Shown in pieces: positions 43,768-54,758 of a stretch of DNA of 64,000 nucleotides. Source of the stretch: Aurantimonas manganoxydans SI85-9A1 (GTDB lineage: Bacteria; Pseudomonadota; Alphaproteobacteria; Rhizobiales; Rhizobiaceae); contig NZ_CH672387.1 in the NCBI RefSeq assembly GCF_000153465.1, positions 3,937,955 to 4,001,954 of the forward strand, written 5' to 3'. Numbering within the stretch: the stretch's first letter is position 1; each line of letters begins with the position of its first letter. Both the position numbers and the translations under genes were made by a program. The notes beneath the pieces were generated by a model that did not search any database, was not told the DNA's origin, and was given only the letters and a program-made list of their open reading frames with translations.

Positions 43768-44080
43768 GACAATCCCCTGCCCCGTTCCAGCGCGGCGTCT
43801 ACCCGATCTGCCGGAGAAGGGAAACGGGGACGGCCATCCGATGGCCGGAATCGTCGGCCAGTGTGGCGAGTGCGCCCGTCCGCGGCGTCGCCGGCGCCGC
43901 TTGCCGCCGGGGCGATTCCGGCTATGTCGCTCAAAGCAAAGGCAGACCCGTTGACGGTCCATTGACGAGTGTCTGCCATCATGACGCGCAGGGACGTCCA
44001 GTCGGGCGCGCCGTCGATCATTTCAAACAGGGGCAGCCCGCGCGCGGGTGATCCGTCCGAAGAGCACCCGATCCAACCGC
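43768..44080. promoter_or_regulatory. Divergent uppP / fzlA promoter region with a 17-bp palindrome
   Basis: This 313-base gap has no supported gene. CGGCCATCCGATGGCCG (43831-43847) is a perfect palindrome with 8-bp arms, 64 bases upstream of uppP. Two TTGACG hexamers (43951 and 43962) could be -35 elements toward fzlA, but no good -10 follows at the right distance, so no promoter is called. Confidence 0.4.
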
Positions 44081-44773
44081 ATGCTGAAGCTACACCATCA
44101 TCCGATGTCCGCCGCCTCGCGTTTCGTGCGGCTCGTCCTCGGGGAATATGGCGAGCGCGCCGAATATCTGGAGGAGCGTCCGTGGGAGAAGCGCCGCGAC
44201 TTCCTGGCGCTGAATCCGGCCGCGACCCTGCCGGTGATGCTTGAGGATGACGGGCCGGCGATCGTCGGCGCGACGGTGGCGGGCGAGTATCTCGACGAGA
44301 CCCGCGGCGTCTTCCAGCGCGACAAGCGGCTCCTGCCGGAAAAGCCGCTGGAGCGGGCCGAGGTGCGGCGGCTGACCGAGTGGTTCCTGGGCAAGCTCGA
44401 CAGCGAGGTCACGCGCTATCTTGTCCGCGAACGGGTGTTCAAGCTGGAAATGAGCGCCGATGCCGGCGGCGGACCGCCGGACGCCTCGGCGATCCGCGCG
44501 GCACGGGCCAATCTGAAGCATCATCTGCGCTATCTCGGCTGGCTGGCCGAAAGCCGCGACTGGCTGGCCGGCCCGCGGCTCTCCTATGCCGATCTGGCGG
44601 CTGCGGCCGAACTCTCGATCCTCGACTATCTCGGCGAGATCCCGTGGGAGAAGGAGCCGGCGGCCAAGGACTGGTACATGCGGATCAAGTCGCGCCCGTC
44701 CTTCCGCCCCCTCCTGACCGAGCGCGTGCGCGGCCTACCGCCGGTGCATCACTACGTCCAGCTCGACTTCTGA
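44081..44773 (+). CDS. fzlA: FtsZ-binding GST-fold protein FzlA
   Basis: A 230-residue glutathione-transferase-fold protein. It opens MLKLHHHPMSAASRFVRLVLGEY, continues ERPWEKRRDFLALNPAATLPVML, and ends PPVHHYVQLDF; the start and the conserved C-terminal tail both match FzlA of Caulobacter as I remember it. There FzlA binds FtsZ filaments and is needed to activate septal wall synthesis, with the C-terminal tail essential for function. It lacks convincing glutathione-binding residues. Start 44081 follows the family; upstream ATG 44048 would add 11 residues. Neighbours are uppP and queG. Confidence 0.88.
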   Translation: MLKLHHHPMSAASRFVRLVLGEYGERAEYLEERPWEKRRDFLALNPAATLPVMLEDDGPAIVGATVAGEYLDETRGVFQRDKRLLPEKPLERAEVRRLTEWFLGKLDSEVTRYLVRERVFKLEMSADAGGGPPDASAIRAARANLKHHLRYLGWLAESRDWLAGPRLSYADLAAAAELSILDYLGEIPWEKEPAAKDWYMRIKSRPSFRPLLTERVRGLPPVHHYVQLDF

Positions 44774-44830
44774 GCCGCAGCGCGGGCCCCGGGGCGTGCG
44801 CCGGAGCGTCGAACCGACTATATCGCCACC

Positions 44831-45976
44831 ATGACCGCGCGCGAGACACTGACCGACTTCATCCGCAAGGACGCCGGCCGGCTGGGCTTTTCGGCGGTCG
44901 GCATCGCGCCTGGAACCGGCGATGTCGCGGCCGGGCCCCGCCTCGACGAGTTCATCGCCAAGGGCCGCTACGGCACGATGGGCTGGATGCCCGAGACGGC
45001 GGAGCGTCGACGCTCCGCCCGGGCGCTGTGGCCCGACGTGCGCTCGATCGTCGTTCTCGGCATGAATTACGGCCCGCAGGACGACCCGCTGGCGATCCTG
45101 CAGCGTCCGGATCGCGGCGCGATCTCGGTCTATGCCCGCCACCGCGACTATCACGACGTCATCAAGGGCCGGCTCAAGGAACTGGCCGGCCGCATGGTCG
45201 CCAAGGCCCGCCAGTCAGGGCTCGGCGAGCACGACGCCAAAGTCTTCGTCGACACCGCACCGGTGATGGAAAAGCCGCTCGGCGAGATGGCGGGCCTCGG
45301 CTGGCAGGGCAAGCACACCAACCTCGTCTCGCGCGAGCACGGCTCCTGGCTGTTCCTCGGCTCGATCTTCACCACGCTGGAGATGACGCCCGACGCGCCG
45401 GGCCGCGATCTCTGCGGTTCCTGCCGGGCCTGCCAGGACGTCTGCCCGACCGACGCCTTTCCCGAGCCCTACAAGCTCGATGCGCGGCGCTGCATCTCCT
45501 ACCTGACGATCGAGACCCGCAAGCCGGTGCCGCAAGAATTCCGGGCGGCCATGGGCAACCGCATCTATGGCTGCGACGACTGCCTCGCCGTCTGCCCCTG
45601 GAACAAGTTTGCCGGCAAAGCCAGCGAAGCCAAGCTGATCGCCCGCGAGGATCTCAACGCGCCGACACTCGCCGATCTCCTCGCGCTGGACGATGCCGCC
45701 TTCCGCGCCCTGTTTTCCGGTTCGCCGATCAAGCGGATCGGGCGCGACAAGTTCGTGTCCAACTGCCTGATCGCCGCCGGCAATTCCGGCGATGCGACGC
45801 TGCTCGGTGCCGTGAGAGAGCATCTCACGGACGCCGCGCCCCTCGTGCGGGCCATGGCGATCTGGGCGCTCGCCCGGCTGTCGCCCGAAGACGCCTTGCA
45901 GCGCCGGTCCGCCGCGCTTGATAGGGAAGACGATCCCGTCGTCAGGAGCGAATGGCATGCCCTTCAAGGACCGTAA
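44831..45976 (+). CDS. queG: Epoxyqueuosine reductase
   Basis: A 381-residue cobalamin-dependent iron-sulfur enzyme for the last step of queuosine synthesis in tRNA. Two 4Fe-4S motifs are seen, [12 protein letters not shown] and [10 protein letters not shown]. The catalytic/cobalamin region [26 protein letters not shown] and [11 protein letters not shown] match QueG. A C-terminal HEAT-like tail ([19 protein letters not shown]) is also usual. It lies 57 bases after fzlA. No ribosome-binding site is obvious. Its last 20 bases overlap the start of the AIG-repeat gene. Confidence 0.95.
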
Positions 45977-46292
45977 GCCATCCCGATCCGGCGCCCGCGA
46001 TGCCGGCGTCGAGGCCCAGGTGCGACGGGCCGTCGGCCAGCTGCGTCACGGCGCGCAGGTGACACCGGCCACTGCCGCGGGCTCTGCGGCGCTCGGTGCC
46101 GGCGCAATCGGCGCATTGGCCATCGGCGCTCTGGCGATCGGATCGGTGGCGGTGGGCGCCTTCGCCATCGGGCGATTGTCCGTCGGGAGAGCTCGTATCG
46201 GAACGGCCGACATCGGCAGGCTGCGGATCGGCCGGCTGGAACTCGGCGAGATGGCCCGGCCGCACGATCCTGCCGAACCCTGGAGCGACTGA
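45957..46292 (+). CDS. Small protein with eleven tandem xIGxL pentapeptides
   Basis: A 111-residue protein I do not recognise as a named family. Residues 1-42 are basic and polar. From residue 46 to 97 an (I/V/L)-Gly pair recurs every five residues without a break: Gly at 47, 52, 57, 62, 67, 72, 77, 82, 87, 92 and 97, as in [18 protein letters not shown] and then [18 protein letters not shown]. The first half is hydrophobic with small residues, the second half basic. Strict period five recalls pentapeptide-repeat quadrilateral beta-helices; alternatively the hydrophobic half could be a glycine-zipper membrane hairpin. AGGAG is eight bases before ATG 45957. It overlaps queG and lies 4 bases before the SDR gene. 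Confidence 0.75.
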
Positions 46293-46296
46293 CCCC

Positions 46297-47217
46297 ATGC
46301 ATTTCTTCGTCTTCGGCCACGGCTATTCGGCCGGGCACTTCGTCGACACGCTCGATCCGCACGACGTCACCGGCGTGACGGTGCGCACGGCGGACAAGGC
46401 GAGCCGGCTGGCGGCACATCATCTCAAACCCTTCGTCTTCGACGGCGAGCACCCGACCGACGGCATCTCGCCGGCGCTCTACCGCGCCACGCATCTGCTC
46501 GTCTCGGTGCCGCCGGGCCATGCCGCGCCGACGGGCGCCAGCGTCGGCGGCGCCAATGCGCGGCCCGGCGACCCGGTGCTGCGCTGGTATGGCGACGCGA
46601 TCGCCCATGGCTGCCCGAAACTCGAATGGATCGGCTATCTGTCCACGGTCGGGGTCTATGGCGACCATGATGGCGGCTGGGTGGACGAGGACAGCGAGAC
46701 GCGGCCGGTCTCGGAACGATCGAAGGCCCGCATCGCCGCCGAAACGGCCTGGCAGGAGGCGGCGGCGACGCGGCGGGTGCCGCTTGCGATCCTGCGCCTG
46801 TCCGGCATTTACGGCCCCGGCCGCAACGGCTTCGTCAATCTGGCGAAGGGAACCGCTAAGCGGCTGGTAAAGCCCGGCCAGGTGTTCAACCGGATCCATG
46901 TCGACGACATCGCCGGGGCGCTGAGCCTGCTGGCGGAACAGCGGCTCGGCGGCCTCTACAACGTCACCGACGACGAGCCGGCCCCGCCGCAGGAGGTGGT
47001 CGCCCATGCCGCGGCGATGGCTGGTGTCGAACCGCCGCCGGAAATCCCCTTCGACGCCGCCGAACTCTCGCCGATGGCGCGCAGCTTCTATGGCGAGAAC
47101 AAGCGGGTTTCCAACGCAAGGATCAAGAAAGCAGGCTACCAGTTCCGCCATCCGACCTATCGCGAGGGACTGGAGAGCGTGCGGGCCGATGCGGCGCTGA
47201 TCGGCGCCGGCAGCTAA
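46297..47217 (+). CDS. NAD-dependent epimerase/dehydratase-family protein (extended SDR-like)
   Basis: A 306-residue SDR. The N-terminus FFVFGHGYSAGHFV has a modified glycine-rich loop (GHGYSA instead of GxxGxxG). A typical segment IGYLSTVGVYGDHDGGWVDEDS follows, but the usual YxxxK is replaced by a SKARIAAETAW stretch, so catalytic activity is doubtful. ILRLSGIYGPGRNGF and FNRIHVDDIAGAL are family blocks. Related proteins lie beside queG in many Hyphomicrobiales. Substrate unknown. It could be an NAD-binding scaffold rather than an enzyme. Confidence 0.83.
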   Translation: MHFFVFGHGYSAGHFVDTLDPHDVTGVTVRTADKASRLAAHHLKPFVFDGEHPTDGISPALYRATHLLVSVPPGHAAPTGASVGGANARPGDPVLRWYGDAIAHGCPKLEWIGYLSTVGVYGDHDGGWVDEDSETRPVSERSKARIAAETAWQEAAATRRVPLAILRLSGIYGPGRNGFVNLAKGTAKRLVKPGQVFNRIHVDDIAGALSLLAEQRLGGLYNVTDDEPAPPQEVVAHAAAMAGVEPPPEIPFDAAELSPMARSFYGENKRVSNARIKKAGYQFRHPTYREGLESVRADAALIGAGS

Positions 47218-47232
47218 GGGCGGCCTTCCGCG

Positions 47233-47622
47233 TCAGGCGGTCTGCAGCCCGCAATGGACGGCCAGCGCTGCCATGTCCGGATCGGCGTGCAGAACGCGAT
47301 GTCCGCGGTCGATGGCATGGGCGGCGATCAGCGCCGCTTCGGGCCGCTGCAACGCGACGCCCCTGCCCCGCAAGCTCCGCGCGAGACCGGCAGCCCGACC
47401 GACCGACCGCTCGCCCGTGACGGGCAGGACCGGAAACTGGCGCAGATAGCGACCGATACGGTCGGCGTCGCGATCATCCGCCGCCCCTGCCAGCAGCCGG
47501 AAAAGGGTCAGATCGGCAATCCCGATCTCCGACAGATCGGGGCTCTCCCGCAGCATCCGGAGTTCGCGCGTGTCCTCGCCCCTCAGATTGGCGATCCAGA
47601 CCGAGGCGTCGACGAGGATCAT
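47233..47622 (-). CDS. vapC: PIN-domain toxin VapC, catalytic site partly eroded
   Basis: A 129-residue PIN-domain protein paired with a VapB antitoxin by an ATGA overlap. The N-terminus MILVDASVWI supplies the first Asp (Asp5). The third pair is present in LHADPDM (Asp114, Asp116). The usual Glu of the second motif (xAExLxG) is Arg42 in LFRLLAG. The Asp expected in the fourth-helix motif (xxDxLIA) appears as Ala96 in PEAALIA, with Glu95 next to it. Two of the four metal-binding acids are therefore missing or shifted. VapC toxins are Mg-dependent RNases, so this one may be inactive or altered. Confidence 0.83.
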   Translation of the reverse strand: MILVDASVWIANLRGEDTRELRMLRESPDLSEIGIADLTLFRLLAGAADDRDADRIGRYLRQFPVLPVTGERSVGRAAGLARSLRGRGVALQRPEAALIAAHAIDRGHRVLHADPDMAALAVHCGLQTA

Positions 47623-47828
47623 CCGCCGGCCGCGTCCGTCTGGCCGGGTCCGTCCGTTCCGGGCCCCGGCCACCCCATGCCGTGCATGTCGGCGAGGGCG
47701 CGGCGGCGGCGCTCCTGGGCAATCAGCCGGCGCAGGGCCTCCTCGACCGTCGCCTTCTTGGTCGAGAGGCCCGCCGCAGCCATCGCCTCGGCCATCAGTC
47801 GGTCGTCGATCTCGATATTGGTGCGCAT
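47619..47828 (-). CDS. vapB: VapB-family antitoxin
   Basis: A 69-residue antitoxin. MRTNIEIDDRLMAEAMAAAG followed by STKKATVEEALRRLIAQERRRRAL is a textbook VapB ribbon-helix-helix start and helix pair. The C-terminal tail (MHGMGWPGPGTDGPGQ) is Gly/Pro-rich and would be the toxin-wrapping, unstructured part. It is the first gene of the vapBC operon and overlaps vapC by four bases. A 12-bp inverted repeat just upstream is the likely auto-regulatory operator. Confidence 0.88.
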   Translation of the reverse strand: MRTNIEIDDRLMAEAMAAAGLSTKKATVEEALRRLIAQERRRRALADMHGMGWPGPGTDGPGQTDAAGG

Positions 47829-47837
47829 GACCCGCTC

Positions 47838-47871
47838 CGATGTGCAGACAGGCCCAGCGGTCTACACATCG
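47838..47871 (-). promoter_or_regulatory. Inverted repeat, candidate vapBC operator
   Basis: CGATGTGCAGAC (47838-47849) and GTCTACACATCG (47860-47871) are complementary at 11 of 12 positions across a 10-base spacer. The repeat begins 10 bases upstream of the vapB start, where VapB/VapBC complexes usually bind to repress their own promoter. Confidence 0.65.
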
Positions 47872-47924
47872 CTCCGGATCGCTTCAAGCCGCGTGCCTCT
47901 GGCCGGGCGATTCCAAGCGAAGGC

Positions 47925-49445
47925 CTAGCGTTCGATGCGGTCGATGAACCAGCGGGTCAACCGGGTCCAGACCTCGTCCTTCTCGGCGTAATCCTCGACG
48001 CCGTGCTCCAGGTTCGGATTGTCGTTGACCTCGATCAGGAAGACGCCGTCGTCGGTCTCCTTCAGATCGACGCCATAGAGGCCGTCGCCGATGCAGCGGG
48101 CGCCGCGCAGGCCCGCGTCGAGCACATGCGGCGGCGCCTCGCCCAGCGCGAAAGGCCGGAAGCCGCCTTCCATCGGCCGGCCGCCGGTCTCGTGGTTGAT
48201 GATTTGCCAGTGCTCGCCGGCCATCAGATACTGGACGGCGAAGAGCGGTTCGCCGCCAAGGACGCCGATACGCCAGTCGAATTTCGTCGGCATGAACTTC
48301 TGGGCGATCAGCAGGTCGGAATCCTCCAGCCATGCCGTCGCCAGCCTGACCAGCCCGGCCATGTCGTCGAGCTTCTTGACGCCGCGCGAGAAGGAGCCGT
48401 CGGGGATCTTCAGCACCATGGGGAAGCCAAGTTCGTCGGCCGCCTTCTGGAAATCCTCCTTGCCGCCGATCATCACCGAGGGCGGTGTCGCCACCCCGTT
48501 CGCCGCCATCAGCTCGTTGCAATAGACCTTGTTGGTGCAGCGGATCATCGAGATCGGATCGTCGATGACCGGCATGCCCTCCTGCATGGCGCGCCTTGCG
48601 AAGCGATAGGTGTGGTTGGAGATCGAGGTCGTCTCGCGGATGAAAAGCGCGTCGAAATTGGCCAGTCGCGGCAGGTCGCGGCGGGTGATCGGCTCGACGT
48701 CGACGCCGAGCCGTGCGGCCGTGCGGGCCCAGTGCTTGAGCGTGTCCACCGAGGACGGCGGCAACGTCTCGTTGGGATCGTAGAGCGTCGCGAAGGCATA
48801 TTTCGCCGGGGTCTTGGCCTTGGCGGCGCGCCATTCGCGGGCGGTGTAGCGCTCCATGGCGGCCAGCAGCCGGCCGGTCTCGGCCGCATCCAGCTTGGCG
48901 GGCGCGGCAAAGCCGATGCGTCGGATCTTTGCCCGGCGGTCGAGCGGTGCCGATTGGCTCGTGCGCCGAGCCGGCGATGCCGAGGCCGCCGGTCGCTCCG
49001 TGGCTTCGGCGCCGTCCAGATGCACCTCCAGCGCCGGGGCGCGGAACCAGTCGAAGACCAGCTTGGCGAAGCGCTCCAGGCGTGGATCGTCGGTGTAGCC
49101 GAAATAGATCCGGATCGGGGAAGCTGGCCGCTCGCCCTTTTCCAGCGCCTTGGCGAGGGCCGCGTCCAGTTCCGGCAGGGCGTTCTCGTAGAGCTTCTTC
49201 TCCGACAGGTCGATCATCGTCTCGACCGAGGGAATGATGCGATGGCCCCGCGCCTCGGCGAGCAGCGAGCCGTAATAGGCGCGGCTCTGATAGGCGTAGG
49301 AGCGCGACAGATTGATGATCTTGGGGCGCTGGCCGCGGAACAGGCCCGGCCGCGCGAGATAGTCGCGCACCGTCATGACCTTGTGCGGCGTCGCGCCATT
49401 GTCGAGATCGGACAGGCGTCCGACGAGAACCACCCATTGGGACAT
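47925..49445 (-). CDS. RimK-type ATP-grasp ligase with N-terminal RLAN domain
   Basis: A 506-residue predicted amino-acid/peptide ligase. The N-terminal RLAN domain (about 1-200; WVVLVGRLSDLDN, INLSRSYAYQSRAYYGSLLAEARGHRIIPS) precedes a linker (about 145-170, Ala/Ser-rich) and a RimK-like ATP-grasp domain (about 260-500): MIRCTNKVYCNELMAANGV, FPMVLKIPDGSFSRGVKK (ATP lysines), LLIAQKFMPTKFDWRIGVL, and Mg-binding YGVDLKE and FLIEVNDNPN. ATP-grasp enzymes of this group join amino acids through acyl-phosphates. Nine bases upstream ends a GNAT-peptidase C39 fusion gene, so the two are one operon. No substrate is known to me. Confidence 0.88.
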   Translation of the reverse strand: MSQWVVLVGRLSDLDNGATPHKVMTVRDYLARPGLFRGQRPKIINLSRSYAYQSRAYYGSLLAEARGHRIIPSVETMIDLSEKKLYENALPELDAALAKALEKGERPASPIRIYFGYTDDPRLERFAKLVFDWFRAPALEVHLDGAEATERPAASASPARRTSQSAPLDRRAKIRRIGFAAPAKLDAAETGRLLAAMERYTAREWRAAKAKTPAKYAFATLYDPNETLPPSSVDTLKHWARTAARLGVDVEPITRRDLPRLANFDALFIRETTSISNHTYRFARRAMQEGMPVIDDPISMIRCTNKVYCNELMAANGVATPPSVMIGGKEDFQKAADELGFPMVLKIPDGSFSRGVKKLDDMAGLVRLATAWLEDSDLLIAQKFMPTKFDWRIGVLGGEPLFAVQYLMAGEHWQIINHETGGRPMEGGFRPFALGEAPPHVLDAGLRGARCIGDGLYGVDLKETDDGVFLIEVNDNPNLEHGVEDYAEKDEVWTRLTRWFIDRIER

Positions 49446-49454
49446 GAAAGACGG

Positions 49455-50726
49455 CTAAGCCTCGCGCCTGGACAGAAACACCGCGGCCCGGAGGCCGACC
49501 TTGCCGAAACGCGCGATCCGGTCGAAGGTCTCATAGGGGATCGGAAGATTGGCCGCGTCGGCGACCGTCTCGCCGCGCTCGTCGGCGACCCAGGGGTCGT
49601 GGATGACGATATGGCGGCCGTCGTCGCCATGGGCGAGCACCCAGTGCGGCACCTTCTTGCCGAACATGTGATAGCCCGAGATCAGGACGACGGCGGTCTT
49701 GCCGGCGGCGATCGCGGCGCGCAGATCGTCGAGGGTGAAGCGCCCGATTGTCACGTCGATGGCGTAGCGCTCGGCCCGGCGGCGGAAATCCTCCTGTGCG
49801 AGCCCCATCACCACCTGCTTCTCGGGATTGCGGACGCCTTCGAGAAACAGGTCGCCCGGCTCGGACACATGAATCTCGGCGGCAAGGCCCGCCTCATGGG
49901 CGGCGACGGCCAGGCCGTAGGGCTCGCAGCCGCCCGGCCCCGACATCATGAAGATGGTCGTCGCCTCGCGCCACAGCCGGATCTCGGTCACCGGCTCCAG
50001 CACGAAGCCCGGAATGTCGCGGCCCATGGCCATCATCAGGCAGCAGGCGCCGCAGGTGAAATCGGTGGTCTGCTCGTAATAGGGCACGCCGGTGTCGATC
50101 GGATGGTCGCCGCGCAGCGTCTTCTCGAAGCGCAGCGCCGTCTCGTGATCGGCGTAATAGTCGAGATAGGTGCCGATGGGGCGGAAGCCCTCGCCGCGAT
50201 AGAGGGCGATGGCGGCGGCGTTGTCGGCGCGCACTTCCAGCCGCAGGGCGATGCGATCGCGGTCGAAGGCAGCGGCCTCCGCCGCCTTCAGGAGCGCCCT
50301 GCCGATGCCGCGTCCCGCCGCCTGGGGAGAGACCGCGATGGAATAGAGCCGGGCGAGACCGGTGCCGCGCCGCACGAGGAGCGCGGCATAGGCGAGAATC
50401 GGGCCGGATCGCGGCGCATCGCCAGCAGGGCGCGGCGCGGCTGCTTTTGTGGCTTCGACGCTCCCCTCGCCTGCGTCGCCGACACCGGTCGCCTCGACGA
50501 CGAGGACGACGGCGCTGGGCGAGGCGATGAGATTGCGGAAGGAGCGCCGGGAAATCCGGTCGGCCTCGAAGACGGCGGTCTCGATCGCCACGAGGGGCTC
50601 GAGATCACCCGGCCGCGCGGGACGGATGACATATCCGGTGTGCGCGGCAGTTTCGGGTTGGTCATGGGATCGGGGGCGCCCGTCTTCCCTGGGGGAGACC
50701 GAACTGGTCGACGGCTGGTGCAGCAT
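49455..50726 (-). CDS. GNAT acetyltransferase / C39-like cysteine peptidase fusion
   Basis: About 423 residues. The N-terminal GNAT domain (about 30-180; RPARPGDLEPLVAIETAVF, YSIAVSPQAAGRGIGRALLKAA with the acetyl-CoA loop Q/R-xxG-x-G/A) is followed by a papain-like C39 peptidase domain (about 205-420). The peptidase has its Cys in YEQTTDFTCGACCLMMAMG, the His in VPHWVLAHGDDG and the Asp in IHDPW, so the triad looks complete. It is cytosolic, with no transporter domain attached, unlike bacteriocin-processing C39 proteins. The start is uncertain: ATG 50726 is used, ATG 50786 is possible, neither with a clear ribosome-binding site. It is the first gene of a two-gene operon with the RLAN-RimK ligase. 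Substrate unknown. Confidence 0.85.
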   Translation of the reverse strand: MLHQPSTSSVSPREDGRPRSHDQPETAAHTGYVIRPARPGDLEPLVAIETAVFEADRISRRSFRNLIASPSAVVLVVEATGVGDAGEGSVEATKAAAPRPAGDAPRSGPILAYAALLVRRGTGLARLYSIAVSPQAAGRGIGRALLKAAEAAAFDRDRIALRLEVRADNAAAIALYRGEGFRPIGTYLDYYADHETALRFEKTLRGDHPIDTGVPYYEQTTDFTCGACCLMMAMGRDIPGFVLEPVTEIRLWREATTIFMMSGPGGCEPYGLAVAAHEAGLAAEIHVSEPGDLFLEGVRNPEKQVVMGLAQEDFRRRAERYAIDVTIGRFTLDDLRAAIAAGKTAVVLISGYHMFGKKVPHWVLAHGDDGRHIVIHDPWVADERGETVADAANLPIPYETFDRIARFGKVGLRAAVFLSRREA

Positions 50727-50900
50727 CGGGGTGTCATCGGCAGGGAGGTGACGCAAACGACACGATGCCGCCGCCTGTCCCTTCATAGGCTATCGCTTAT
50801 AGGCCTGCGCAAAGGGGAATGCGACGGGAATCGGTGGCGGTGACACGCAGGTGATGGGCATCGCACAGCGTCGCATCGGCGCGACCAAGCCTGCCATACA

Positions 50901-50949
50901 GGTGGCCGAAAGCGCCGGATTGCTGCCTTGCAAAGACTTTTCGGCCAAC
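50901..50949. repeat. Stem-loop with 8-11 bp stem
   Basis: GGTGGCCGAAA (50901-50911) faces TTTCGGCCAACC (50938-50949). Eight pairs are contiguous (GGCCGAAA/TTTCGGCC) and three more form past a bulged A. The loop is 26 bases. The structure could be part of a leader or small RNA. Confidence 0.45.
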
Positions 50950-51169
50950 CGGTTCGTGCCGCCGCAACTCCGGCCCGCAGCCATCGCCACAACGCGATCA
51001 GCGCCGTCAGCGCGCGATGACACGACGCCGAGCGACAAGCGTCGCAATGCCCTGAAGGCTCCCCTCTGCAGGCATACACGCAAGCATCCGCATCGCAGAA
51101 CATCGCGATCCGGCGCTCGGAGTTGGTTCAGATCACACCCGCAGTCATGCGGACTGGGCGCAAAGGAGA

Positions 51170-51230
51170 CTTGGGAGCAGCTATGGTTCGGGCCTTCGAC
51201 GAGTGCAACAGCCCGTCAGCCGCTCCCAAG
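51170..51230. repeat. Nested long stem-loop, candidate structured RNA
   Basis: CTTGGGAGCAGC (51170-51181) pairs with GCCGCTCCCAAG (51219-51230) at 11 of 12 positions. Inside, CGGGC (51189-51193) pairs with GCCCG (51211-51215) around a 17-base loop, with an asymmetric internal loop between the stems. A smaller CCGCA/TGCGG hairpin precedes it at about 51140. No poly-U tail is evident. Confidence 0.45.
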
Positions 51231-51471
51231 GCCTGTCAGTGAAAATGCCGCTATGCGGAGGCCCGTACAACAACCTCGGCAGTCCGTGCGGCGACATGCA
51301 TAGGTGGTTCCATTCGACACCTCCCGCAGCGTCATTGACGCAGATATCAGCCTACGCTTTCAGGCCTCTGCGTCAAGTCCATGGCAGCAAAATCGGTTGC
51401 CGCTCCGTCAGCCTCGACCAAGGCTCGCGCCATGCCCATCGAGGGTCGGCCGCCTTCATCGGCCGCCGTCG

Positions 51472-51690
51472 TCAGCCCAAACCGGCAACGAAAGGCCGGC
51501 GCCCGGTCGGCGTGATCGTCTCGACGTACCGCAGGGCCTGCAGCCGCTGGTGGGGCGTCAGCGTGTGCAGCTTCACCTCCGCTTCCGTCGAGACCCGGTA
51601 TTCGCCGCAGTGCTCGCAGTGGATTGCTCTCTGGTCCGGCTTTTCCGGCTCGAGCAATGTCGCGTCGCCCTCGCAGATCGGGCATTTCAT
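51472..51690 (-). CDS. Small zinc-ribbon protein
   Basis: A 72-residue protein starting MKCPICEGDATLL, with a second knuckle HCEHCGEYRVS; the CPxC and CxxC pairs 23 residues apart make a zinc ribbon. The C-terminal half (LTPHQRLQALRYVETITPTG) is helical. GAGGAGGA seven bases before the ATG is a near-perfect ribosome-binding site, so the gene is real. It may bind nucleic acid or be a small regulator; I do not recognise a named family. It is transcribed toward the GNAT-C39 operon, separated by the long non-coding stretch. Confidence 0.75.
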   Translation of the reverse strand: MKCPICEGDATLLEPEKPDQRAIHCEHCGEYRVSTEAEVKLHTLTPHQRLQALRYVETITPTGRRPFVAGLG

Positions 51691-51860
51691 ACGCTTCCTC
51701 CTCGATTGTCAGACGCCGGCGATGATACGCGACGACGGGCTCCCCGACGAGGGCCTGCGGGGCGATTGCGGAACAGGGGTTCAGACGCGGCCTGCGGCCC
51801 CTATAGTCATGGCCGATGGACGGGCGAGCGATCGCCGCTTTGCTGCCGGCAGGAGCGACA

Positions 51861-52592
51861 ATGGCCTATGATCTCTATTACTGGCCGATGATCCCGGGCC
51901 GCGGGGAATATCCGCGGCTGGTCCTAGAGGCTGCCGGTGTTGCCTATCGTGACGTCGCCCGCCTGCCTGAATCCGAGGGCGGTGGCATCGCCGCGATGCA
52001 GGCCTTCATCGGCGGAAAGACCGGCCATCTGCCGCCATTCGCGCCGCCCTTTCTGGTCGATGGCGATCTCGTCGTCTCGCAGGCGGCGGAAATCTGCATC
52101 CTTGTCGGCGAGCGCCACGGTCTGGCGCCGAAGGGCGAGGCGGAGCGGCTGTTCGCCCGCTCGATCGCGCTCACCACGGCCGATCTCGTCGCCGAGGCCC
52201 ACGACGTCCATCATCCGCTCGGCGTCGGTCTCTATTACGAGGACCAGACGGATGCCGCGCGCGAACGCGCCCTCGGGTTTCGCGAGGAGCGCCTGCCGAA
52301 GTTCCTCGGCTGGTACGAGCGGATCCTGACCCGCAATCCGGCCGGCTCCGGCTATCTCGTCGGCGATGCGATGAGCTATGCCGATCTCGGCGTGTTCCAG
52401 ACGATGGCGGGCCTGCGCTACGCCTTCCCACGGCGCATGAAGACGCTCGCGCCCGACTATCCGCGCATCGCGGCACTGGTCGAGCGGGTGGCCGCCGCGC
52501 CGCGCATCGCGGCGTATCTCGCCAGCGACCGTCGCATGGCCTTCAACGAGGACGGCATCTTCCGCCACTACCCGGAACTCGACGCGGACTAG
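51861..52592 (+). CDS. Glutathione S-transferase, Sigma-like
   Basis: A 243-residue GST. The N-terminal thioredoxin domain begins DLYYWPMIPGRGEYPRLVLEAAGVAYRDV, where the Tyr and the GRGEyPRL segment are typical of Sigma/Alpha/Pi-like GSTs, followed by LPPFAPPFLVDGDLVVSQAAEICILV (cis-Pro and the SQ glutathione-binding pair). The C-terminal helical domain contains YLVGDAMSYADLGVFQTMAGL with the N-capping Asp. AGGAG lies five bases before ATG 51861. Conjugation or isomerase activity is plausible; the substrate is unknown. Confidence 0.87.
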   Translation: MAYDLYYWPMIPGRGEYPRLVLEAAGVAYRDVARLPESEGGGIAAMQAFIGGKTGHLPPFAPPFLVDGDLVVSQAAEICILVGERHGLAPKGEAERLFARSIALTTADLVAEAHDVHHPLGVGLYYEDQTDAARERALGFREERLPKFLGWYERILTRNPAGSGYLVGDAMSYADLGVFQTMAGLRYAFPRRMKTLAPDYPRIAALVERVAAAPRIAAYLASDRRMAFNEDGIFRHYPELDAD

Positions 52593-52596
52593 CCGT

Positions 52597-52630
52597 CAAA
52601 CGAAAGCGCCCCGGCGAGGGGCCGGGGCGC
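52597..52630 (-). terminator. Intrinsic terminator of the lytic transglycosylase gene
   Basis: A perfect 10-bp stem, GCGCCCCGGC (52606-52615) and GCCGGGGCGC (52621-52630), with a 5-base loop. On the minus strand TTTCGTTT follows. It serves the leftward gene ending at 52675 and may also end the convergent GST transcript. Confidence 0.8.
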
Positions 52631-52674
52631 AGAACGCAGCAGAGGGCCGGATCTTGGTCCGGCCGGCTGGCCGA

Positions 52675-53502
52675 TCAGTTGGCGAGCTTGGAGGCGAAGA
52701 GCGCCAGGGCCTTCTGGTAGACGCCGGCCCGGTTCCAGTCGCGCAGGATGGCGAAGTTCGGCTCGCCCTGCTGGTAGCCGGCACCCGGACGCCAGCCGTG
52801 CTGACGCAGGAAGTTCGCCGTGGAGGCGAGCACGTCGGCCTTGGAGTTGATCAGGTCGCGGCGACCGTTGCCGTCGCCGTCGACGGCGAAGCGCAGGTAG
52901 TTCTTGGCGAGGAACTGGGTCTGGCCGATCTCGCCGGCCCAGGCGCCCTTCATCTGGCTCGGCTTCATGTCGCCGCGATCGACGATCGCCAGGGCCGCCA
53001 GCAGCTCTTCGGTGAAGAAGGCCGAGCGGCGGCAGTCATAGGCCAGCGTCGCCAGCGAGTTGAAGATGTTCATCGAGCCGGAATTGGCGCCGAAGCCGGT
53101 TTCCATGCCCCAGATCGCGACGATGATCTCCTTGGGGACGCCGTAACTCTTCTCGATCGAGTTGAGCAGCCCGGCATTCTGCTGGATGATGCGCTTGCCC
53201 TTGTTGACGAAGGAGGCCGGCGCGCGGCGCTGCATGAACGCCTCGAGCGAGATGTTCATCGAATGCTGGTTGCGGTCCAGCTTGATGACCTGATTGGAAT
53301 AGCTGGTCGGCATCAGCGCCGACTGCACGGTGCCCTGGGAGATGCCGGCGCGCACGGCTTCCTGGGCGAATTCCTGCTTCCACTGGTTGAAGCCACCGCC
53401 ACTGTTGCCGCACTGGGCGGCAAGGGCCGGAGCGGCGCCGAGGCCGATGGTCAGGGCGAGCGATGCGGCGAGCGTCCGCAGGGACGTCAGGCGTACCTTC
53501 AT
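52675..53502 (-). CDS. Lytic murein transglycosylase (MltB/SLT_2 family)
   Basis: A 275-residue periplasmic enzyme cleaving glycan strands. A signal peptide (about 1-28, ALTIGLGAAPALAA) precedes an SLT_2 domain. The catalytic Glu lies in IVAIWGMETGFGANSGSMN, with supporting segments AYDCRRSAFFTEELLAAL, KGAWAGEIGQTQFLAKNYLRFAVDGDGNG and STANFLRQHGWRPGAGYQQG. No C-terminal peptidoglycan-binding domain is present, making it shorter than many homologues. GAGGAA precedes the ATG. It is not a lipoprotein, since no lipobox is seen. Confidence 0.92.
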   Translation of the reverse strand: MKVRLTSLRTLAASLALTIGLGAAPALAAQCGNSGGGFNQWKQEFAQEAVRAGISQGTVQSALMPTSYSNQVIKLDRNQHSMNISLEAFMQRRAPASFVNKGKRIIQQNAGLLNSIEKSYGVPKEIIVAIWGMETGFGANSGSMNIFNSLATLAYDCRRSAFFTEELLAALAIVDRGDMKPSQMKGAWAGEIGQTQFLAKNYLRFAVDGDGNGRRDLINSKADVLASTANFLRQHGWRPGAGYQQGEPNFAILRDWNRAGVYQKALALFASKLAN

Positions 53503-53807
53503 GGGTCTGCTTCCTCGTTTCAGGTCGTGGGGCCGCAAGGGCCGCGTTGCGTCGAATGGGGTGAACGGCGGCGCCGGGGCGCATGGCCATCGGCGGCGGA
53601 CACCGTCCGTGTGCATCCTATCACCCACTTTCCTAACCGATTGCGCGGGGTCTGCGTAGTGCAGCACTGCGACACGGGGAACGGGAAGTGCCGCGCGGGC
53701 GCTCTTCGGGCCGCAGCTCCGCCCTCAGACGCGAACGGCCGCGCCACCCCCGGGGCGACACGGCCGTCACGGGTCTGCGGCGCCCGAAAGCGCCGCACGT
53801 CGTTTGG
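53503..53807. other. Intergenic region between the TAXI receptor and transglycosylase genes
   Basis: A 305-base gap between two leftward genes. A TGCGGCGC/GCGCCGCA hairpin (53775-53796) just past the TAXI receptor stop has no U-tract but probably marks its transcript end. AGTGCAGCACT, a short palindrome, lies near 53658. No gene is supported. Confidence 0.45.
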
Positions 53808-54758
53808 CTAGAGCAGGCCGGCTTCCTTGTAGTAGCGCTCGGCGCCCGGATGCAGCGGCACCGGCAGGTTCTTGCCGGCGGTCTTCGGATCGATGCCCTC
53901 GGCCGCGTTGTGGGCGGCGATGAGCTCCGGCAGGTTCTCGAAGAGCTGCTTGGTCATCTGGTAGGCGAGTTCCTCGTCGACTTCCGCGGAGGTCACGAGA
54001 ATGTTGGTGATCGCCAGGGTCGGAACAGCGGCGTCCTGGCCGTCATAGGTGCCGGCCGGGATTTCGGCCGCAGCGAACGGCGCACCGAGCTTCTCGGCGA
54101 TCTCGGCGGGGACCGCCACGACGGTGATCGGCAGCGAGGAGGCCAGATCGCGGATCGAGGCGACGCCGAGGCCGGCGGACTGGAGCGTCGCGTCGAGCTG
54201 GCGGTTCTTGATCAGCTCGACGGATTCGGCGAAGGGCAGATATTCGGTCTTGCCGAGATCGTCATAGCTCATCTCGGCGGCGCCGAAGATCGCCCGGGCG
54301 TTCAGCTCGGTGCCCGAGGCCGGGGCGCCGACGGACAGGGCCTTGCCCTTCAGGCCGGCCAGATCGGTGATGCCGGATTCCTGCGAGGCGACGATCTGCA
54401 CATAGTTCGGATAGATCGCGGCGATGGCGCGCAGGTTCTCGACCGGCTGCTGGAAGCCGGCGTCGGCATTGCCTTCGGCGGCGGCCTTCACCGTGTCGCC
54501 GAGGGCGAAGGCGATCTCGCCGCGACCCTGGGTGACGAGGTTGACGTTCTCCACCGACGCCTTGGTCGACTGGACCTGCGTCTTCACGCCCTCGATGTTG
54601 TCGGCATAGACCTTGGCCAGCGCCACGCCCAGCGGATAATAGACGCCCGAGGTGCCGCCCGTCAGGACGTTGATGAACTGCTGGGCCGAGGCGGTGGCCG
54701 GCGCGAAGGCCAGACCCGCGACCACGGCCGAGGCGGCGATGCGGTGGAAAAGCTTCAT
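53808..54758 (-). CDS. TAXI-family TRAP transporter solute receptor
   Basis: A 316-residue periplasmic binding protein. A signal peptide (about 1-25, AFAPATASA) is followed by the TAXI start FINVLTGGTSGVYYPLGVALAKVY. Internal segments TKASVENVNLVTQGRGEIAFALGDT, GKALSVGAPASGTELNARAIF and HPGAERYYKEAGLL are characteristic. Known or predicted ligands are glutamate, other dicarboxylates or small acids. TAXI receptors work with a fused DctQM membrane protein, but none is encoded beside it. GGGAGGA precedes the ATG. It is divergent from glcB. Confidence 0.9.
   Translation of the reverse strand: MKLFHRIAASAVVAGLAFAPATASAQQFINVLTGGTSGVYYPLGVALAKVYADNIEGVKTQVQSTKASVENVNLVTQGRGEIAFALGDTVKAAAEGNADAGFQQPVENLRAIAAIYPNYVQIVASQESGITDLAGLKGKALSVGAPASGTELNARAIFGAAEMSYDDLGKTEYLPFAESVELIKNRQLDATLQSAGLGVASIRDLASSLPITVVAVPAEIAEKLGAPFAAAEIPAGTYDGQDAAVPTLAITNILVTSAEVDEELAYQMTKQLFENLPELIAAHNAAEGIDPKTAGKNLPVPLHPGAERYYKEAGLL

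Follow-up and report, generated by a model that had tools for sequence, protein, structure and literature searches.

Do an ATP-grasp ligase, an acetyltransferase and a papain-like peptidase domain encoded by two adjacent genes form one enzyme system, and what could such a system act on? This question is raised by a locus of Aurantimonas manganoxydans SI85-9A1 located in a stretch of 64,000 nucleotides (contig NZ_CH672387.1, positions 3,937,955 to 4,001,954), the whole of which is hereafter called the window. On its minus strand, a gene for a fusion of a GNAT acetyltransferase with a C39-like DUF3335 peptidase domain (GNAT-C39) comes first, followed after nine bases by a gene for a RimK-type ligase carrying an N-terminal RLAN domain. 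The initial annotation had described this arrangement and a complete Cys-His-Asp triad in the peptidase domain, and both are confirmed here (Table 1). It had furthermore proposed that the two genes act jointly, an idea which it let depend on the genes being regular neighbours in related genomes. We show that they are neighbours in nearly all sampled genomes carrying both families and that GNAT and ligase appear to be the steady unit, the peptidase being an extra that comes and goes. We tentatively propose that a peptide or protein terminus is the target of this unit.

We searched 299 genomes of the window's phylum and found RLAN in 56 and DUF3335 in 47 of them, the pair being thus common in this phylum. 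Both families are present in 46 genomes, RLAN only in ten, DUF3335 only in one and neither in 242. This co-occurrence is far above chance (Fisher p about 4e-43, the kinship of the genomes making the value an index rather than a true probability), and in 44 of the 46 genomes carrying both families the two are adjacent, in agreement with a joint system. The adjacent cases show four arrangements, i.e. same strand with GNAT-C39 first (27), divergent (13), ligase first (3) and convergent (1), and the linkage has therefore outlived rearrangement. Six of the 59 RLAN places are represented without long flanks (G096, G013, G017, G100, G036, G201), all six having DUF3335 adjacent. The nearest relatives of the window's pair among the fetched loci are found in Aurantimonas (L087, ligase 84% identical) and Jiella (L088, 82%), and in a comparison of the 10-kb stretch 44001-54000 with these loci, DNA similarity does not reach beyond the two genes (at most 47927 to 50628). 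A CheW-like gene, named by eye, is located upstream of the pair in L087 (5977-6468) and L088 (4137-4625), so the flanks of these two loci are not wholly unlike each other; the window has no DNA similarity there.

Which of the activities belong to the core of the system was analysed with profile models built from our own alignments, the neighbourhood being defined as 3.5 kb around the ligase. The 132 cellular RLAN loci combine the sampled genomes with named loci, the latter being the best 80 of 585 confirmed and leaning towards Alphaproteobacteria; duplicates (L001, L003), loci at a contig end (L158, L174) and repeats (L169, L176-L182) were dropped before counting. A GNAT is present near the ligase in 131 of these loci and a C39 domain in 89, leaving 42 with GNAT only and one without GNAT. 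In this single locus (L068, genome G193) the GNAT-C39 gene lies on another contig. The GNAT model has 131 matches of at least 60 bits in the loci checked, every one of them close to the ligase. In all ten RLAN genomes without DUF3335, a stand-alone homologue of the fusion's GNAT half sits beside the ligase, and the sole DUF3335-only genome (G008) encodes DUF3335 without GNAT. Fourteen loci without a near C39 domain come from the sampled genomes, ten of them from genomes without any DUF3335 and four (G006, G058, G062, G146) from genomes with DUF3335 elsewhere, while the other 28 are named loci, for which absence covers the 3.5 kb around the ligase only. At one locus (L048, one genome) GNAT and ligase share a single reading frame, and a GNAT-C39 gene is located alongside. 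The sequence identities of GNAT and ligase correlate (rho 0.41, 63 cellular rows, 0/500 permutations as high, with shared ancestry left in by the test). A quick tree of 71 ligases requires 14 changes of the C39 state, eight of them forced by well-supported branches; 25 of its 68 inner branches are unresolved, and the reduction to 71 rows retained near-identical rows that differ in state. The changes are fewer than under shuffled labels (15 versus 21-23 in the group table), and the C39 state is thus also partly inherited.

Of 30 diverse ligases that were aligned, all 30 share K306, K346, R392, D460, E472 and N474 with the ligase of the window, and the enzyme therefore looks active judged by its sequence. 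Equally invariant are H412-W413-Q414-I415 with H418 and, within the RLAN domain, N45, Y57, Y58, S60, L61, A63 and R66. In the peptidase domain, Cys, His and a Gln preceding the triad (Q239) are kept in 26/26 aligned DUF3335 proteins, the triad acid being Asp in 22 and Glu in four. E184 and Y196 of the GNAT align with Glu103 and Tyr115 of RimI, given as catalytic in PMC3347575. Among 31 aligned GNATs of the system, two of which (L036, L057) come from genomes with the ligase at a separate place, the Glu is kept in all and the Tyr in 29, and both are lost in three of three diverged DUF3335 proteins that keep the N-terminal region and have no ligase in the fetched stretch. The near-constant GNAT, the optional C39 domain, the L048 fusion and the catalytic residues kept by the system GNATs suggest that acetyltransferase and ligase have been selected together. 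Of the synthesis, acylation and trimming which the initial annotation had combined, ligation and acetylation are thus retained, and the peptidase as an obligatory neighbour, missing in 42 of 132 cellular loci, is given up. GNAT and ligase are the two proteins worth purifying together.

Comparison with known enzymes suggests the kind of substrate. RimI (2cnm) and Ard1 (4pv6) are the nearest folds of the GNAT part, and the best structural match of the ligase is LysX/ArgX in complex with LysW (5k2m; template modelling score by target 0.82-0.83), with RimK also being near. RimI and Ard1 are protein N-alpha-acetyltransferases and LysX/ArgX load the carrier protein LysW, so both halves resemble enzymes acting on protein ends. 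The pair shares fold and catalytic residues with RimI and RimK in the respective halves and differs from them by the RLAN domain, a changed substrate loop, the joint encoding, the peptidase domain and scores below the curated cut-offs. The ligase remains below every NCBIfam cut-off among the matches listed (25 of 31), reaching 88 bits for the RimK subfamily (cut-off 143.4), 20.7 for the S6 ligase (331) and 84.2 for LysX (275.6), and GNAT-C39 reaches 62 bits with the RimI model (86.4). The substrate loop reads HWQIxxH in 30/30 ligases of the family, RimK having RSN there in the alignment; its HW is shared with Thermus LysX.

A minimal form of the core is found in viral contigs. A scan of 2.9 million uncultivated viral contigs (IMG/VR) yielded nine loci, seven of them distinct, with L168 and L169 looking alike around the ligase and L174 being cut off by the contig end; a second scan using the viral alignment recovered the same contigs. 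Four of the seven distinct loci (L170-L173) encode a GNAT of 143-165 residues in a gene overlapping that of an RLAN-less ligase of 284-310 residues, and all four lack the peptidase domain. L167 and L168/L169 contain the ligase alone, L168 together with a portal protein, and L175 a short RLAN with the ligase. Among the neighbours tested, phage-type genes encode a baseplate protein and an integrase in L170 and an integrase in L171, L172 has a weak match to phage replication initiators and L173 only a weak match of unknown function, so L170 is well supported as a phage locus, the phage assignment of the others following from the collection. Searches of isolated phages returned only distant ATP-grasp or RimI-like matches, leaving the IMG/VR contigs as the sole source of the phage form, and a fold search of BFVD gave general ATP-grasp proteins only among the 50 matches listed. 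Free of RLAN and peptidase, the viral form offers experimenters a small version to begin with.

We asked whether the surroundings of the pair reveal its substrate. Among 3,426 open reading frames of 20-110 residues around 64 cellular loci no widely recurring short family was found; the largest group spans five loci, and the groups are mostly confined to one family and apparently shadow reading frames of a DUF2817 gene, an unlinked or highly variable precursor being possible. Around the pair in the fetched stretches there is also no recurring C39-ABC transporter. The remark of the initial annotation that neither a transporter nor an obvious precursor lies next to the pair is supported by these searches. 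All-against-all clustering of reading frames of at least 70 residues in 57 stretches (56 fetched and the window) revealed no widely conserved third gene, the clusters across many families consisting of the two genes and of large, general protein families, e.g. response regulators and ABC ATPases. Recurrence of DUF2817, an M14-type peptidase, and of DUF155 close to the pair is limited to the families f28, f29 and f30. They lie within about 6 kb (coordinates by eye) in 15 of 25 and 13 of 19 genomes also carrying RLAN, respectively. RLAN is present in 25 of 40 genomes with strong DUF2817 matches and in 19 of 31 with DUF155, an enrichment largely due to one family. Some individual neighbourhoods were noted in addition. 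In G006 (L036, L035) a GNAT-C39 gene that has no adjacent ligase is located near genes for an N-acetylglutaminylglutamine amide (NAGGN) synthetase, an asparagine-synthase-like protein, DUF2817 and DUF155; the RLAN ligase of this genome lies elsewhere with a stand-alone GNAT, DUF2817 and DUF155 being near GNAT-C39 and not near the ligase. In L059 (G197) two diverged DUF3335 genes without ligase flank a peptide-type ABC transporter set (by eye), possibly reflecting a different use of the peptidase. L040, L049 and L052, which represent two families, have obgE and rpmA (L27), both named by eye, at a distance of a few kb from the GNAT-ligase pair.

The model we favour, with slightly less than even confidence, is that the pair constitutes one enzyme system modifying the end of a peptide or host protein by ligation and N-acetylation, with optional trimming. 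Judged by homology, i.e. the RimK/LysX/ArgX fold and the ATP-grasp residues, the ligase would activate a carboxylate as acyl phosphate and join it to an amino group, and the RimI/Ard1-like GNAT would acetylate an alpha-amino group, either before ligation or as a cap afterwards. The papain-like DUF3335 domain accompanies the ligase in roughly two thirds of the cellular loci examined and may either act on the modification, by trimming it or taking it off, or make the substrate ready. Recruitment of the substrate or of the GNAT may be the role of the RLAN domain, which most viral versions lack. The substrate itself seems not to be encoded next door, and a cellular protein or peptide of wide occurrence is the probable candidate. 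The least certain step of the model is that the target is a protein end and not a metabolite. If a protein is modified, the pair would represent a system for terminal modification that is widespread in bacteria. Several points weigh against it: small molecules, too, are substrates of RimI-like GNATs and RimK-like ligases; the permutation test of GNAT-ligase identities leaves shared ancestry in; the DUF2817 and DUF155 genes, which would hint at peptide or translation work, are restricted to f28-f30 and absent from the window genome; and the viral ligases sit on long branches in uncultivated contigs, with three of seven viral loci lacking GNAT.

A possible, if less probable, explanation is a small-molecule route in which free amino acids are joined by the ligase into a di- or oligopeptide, the GNAT acetylates it and the peptidase degrades or trims it, comparable to the synthesis of NAGGN. 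NAGGN synthetase (TIGR03103) unites GNAT and ATP-grasp in one unit, the same composition as the constant pair described here, which is itself once encoded in one frame. The lack of a linked protein substrate, the window's two-gene block without DNA similarity to its near relatives outside itself and the G006 GNAT-C39 gene about 4 kb from a NAGGN synthetase, though with the RLAN ligase elsewhere, all fit such a route. However, GNAT-C39 scores 27.6 bits against the TIGR03103 cut-off of 569, this model is not among the ligase matches listed (25 of 31), and NAGGN synthetases above the cut-off occur in 28 of 299 genomes, eight of them with RLAN (Fisher p 0.20, not significant). The window genome moreover has its own NAGGN synthetase in a separate gene about 350 kb from the pair (G000:C1:3634767-3636401, 924 bits versus 569). 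Membership of the pair in this family was rejected on the curated cut-off, the model placing the pair and the synthetase in different subfamilies. The viral contigs carrying the core also speak against a small-molecule route, as osmolyte synthesis would be unusual there.

A more specific version of the terminal-modification model, which we regard as unlikely, assigns both ends of one host protein to the pair: the RimI-type and RimK-type enzymes would mark its free amino end and its carboxyl end, and some phages would carry a minimal copy modifying host proteins or their own. The translation machinery is suggested as the target because RimI and RimK modify S18 and S6, respectively, and some lineages have a DUF155/RMND1-type gene next to the pair. 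We consider it very improbable that the locus is a graspetide-like cluster for a ribosomally synthesised and post-translationally modified peptide, with the ligase cyclising a precursor, the GNAT acetylating its N terminus and the C39-like domain removing the leader. The same kinds of activity, i.e. ATP-grasp ligase, GNAT and leader peptidase, occur in microviridin/graspetide pathways (PMC13039773, PMC8939145), whereas the pair described here has neither a widely recurring short reading frame near the 64 cellular loci nor a recurring C39-ABC transporter, and in 42 of 132 loci the ligase has no peptidase domain near it. Hardly any weight is left for a plain RimK acting on ribosomal protein S6 next to an unrelated GNAT-peptidase, which the initial annotation had named as a finding that would refute a joint system; it has the RimK fold and distant similarity on its side and was rejected on the RimK-family and S6-ligase cut-offs and the HWQIxxH loop replacing RSN, with the extra RLAN domain and the steady GNAT link also opposing it.

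The pairing of RLAN-RimK and GNAT-papain genes was reportedly already noted by Iyer et al. in 2009, with domain make-up and adjacency as in the window. A survey of papain-like enzymes published in JBC in 2023, which cites Iyer et al. 2009, describes DUF3335 members as often fused to GNAT domains (PMC10318531). The window's pair thus belongs to an already recognised kind. Further features were seen here, namely GNAT and ligase as the core, a peptidase that is optional, one GNAT-ligase fusion and an RLAN-less viral form, and the 2009 work may already state some of this. Titles, abstracts and passages of the literature within reach, which excludes most subscription papers, contained no functional study of the pair.

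The features of the two genes are collected in Table 1. The ligase reaches 133.2 bits for PF14401 (RLAN, cut-off 25) and 33.7 bits for PF08443 (RimK, cut-off 21, E 3.6e-8), and GNAT-C39 matches PF00583 (GNAT, E 1e-13) and PF11814 (DUF3335, "Peptidase_C39 like", 259.9 bits versus 25, E 1.8e-77). The AlphaFold models have a mean pLDDT (predicted local distance difference test) of 86.2 for the ligase and 85.3 for GNAT-C39, the first 47 residues of the latter being of low confidence, so its start may sit further in. Its N terminus, read by eye, suggests a cytosolic protein.

Table 1. Coordinates of the two genes and their domains in the window
Feature	Position	Strand	Basis
RLAN-RimK-type ATP-grasp ligase, 506 aa	47925..49445	-	Open reading frame and domain matches
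RLAN N-terminal domain, ligase residues 26-147	49005..49370	-	PF14401, E 7.8e-39
Pre-ATP-grasp and ATP-grasp part, ligase residues 212-505	47931..48812	-	Aligned ligases
GNAT-DUF3335 (C39-like) fusion protein, 443 aa as called	49455..50786	-	Open reading frame and domain matches
RimI-like GNAT domain, fusion residues about 50-222	50121..50639	-	E184, Y196 = RimI Glu103, Tyr115
DUF3335 C39-like papain-type peptidase domain, fusion residues 234-438	49473..50087	-	Triad C245/H381/D397, Q239
9-base gap separating GNAT-C39 and ligase genes	49446..49454	-	Open reading frame coordinates

Directly 3' of the ligase gene and on the same strand lies a VapBC-type pair (47236-47828, minus strand), with VapB at 47622-47828 and a PIN-domain protein below it. 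A small protein with two CxxC motifs is encoded at 51472-51690 (minus strand) and shows a weak match to Lar_restr_allev (22.2 bits versus 28.6).

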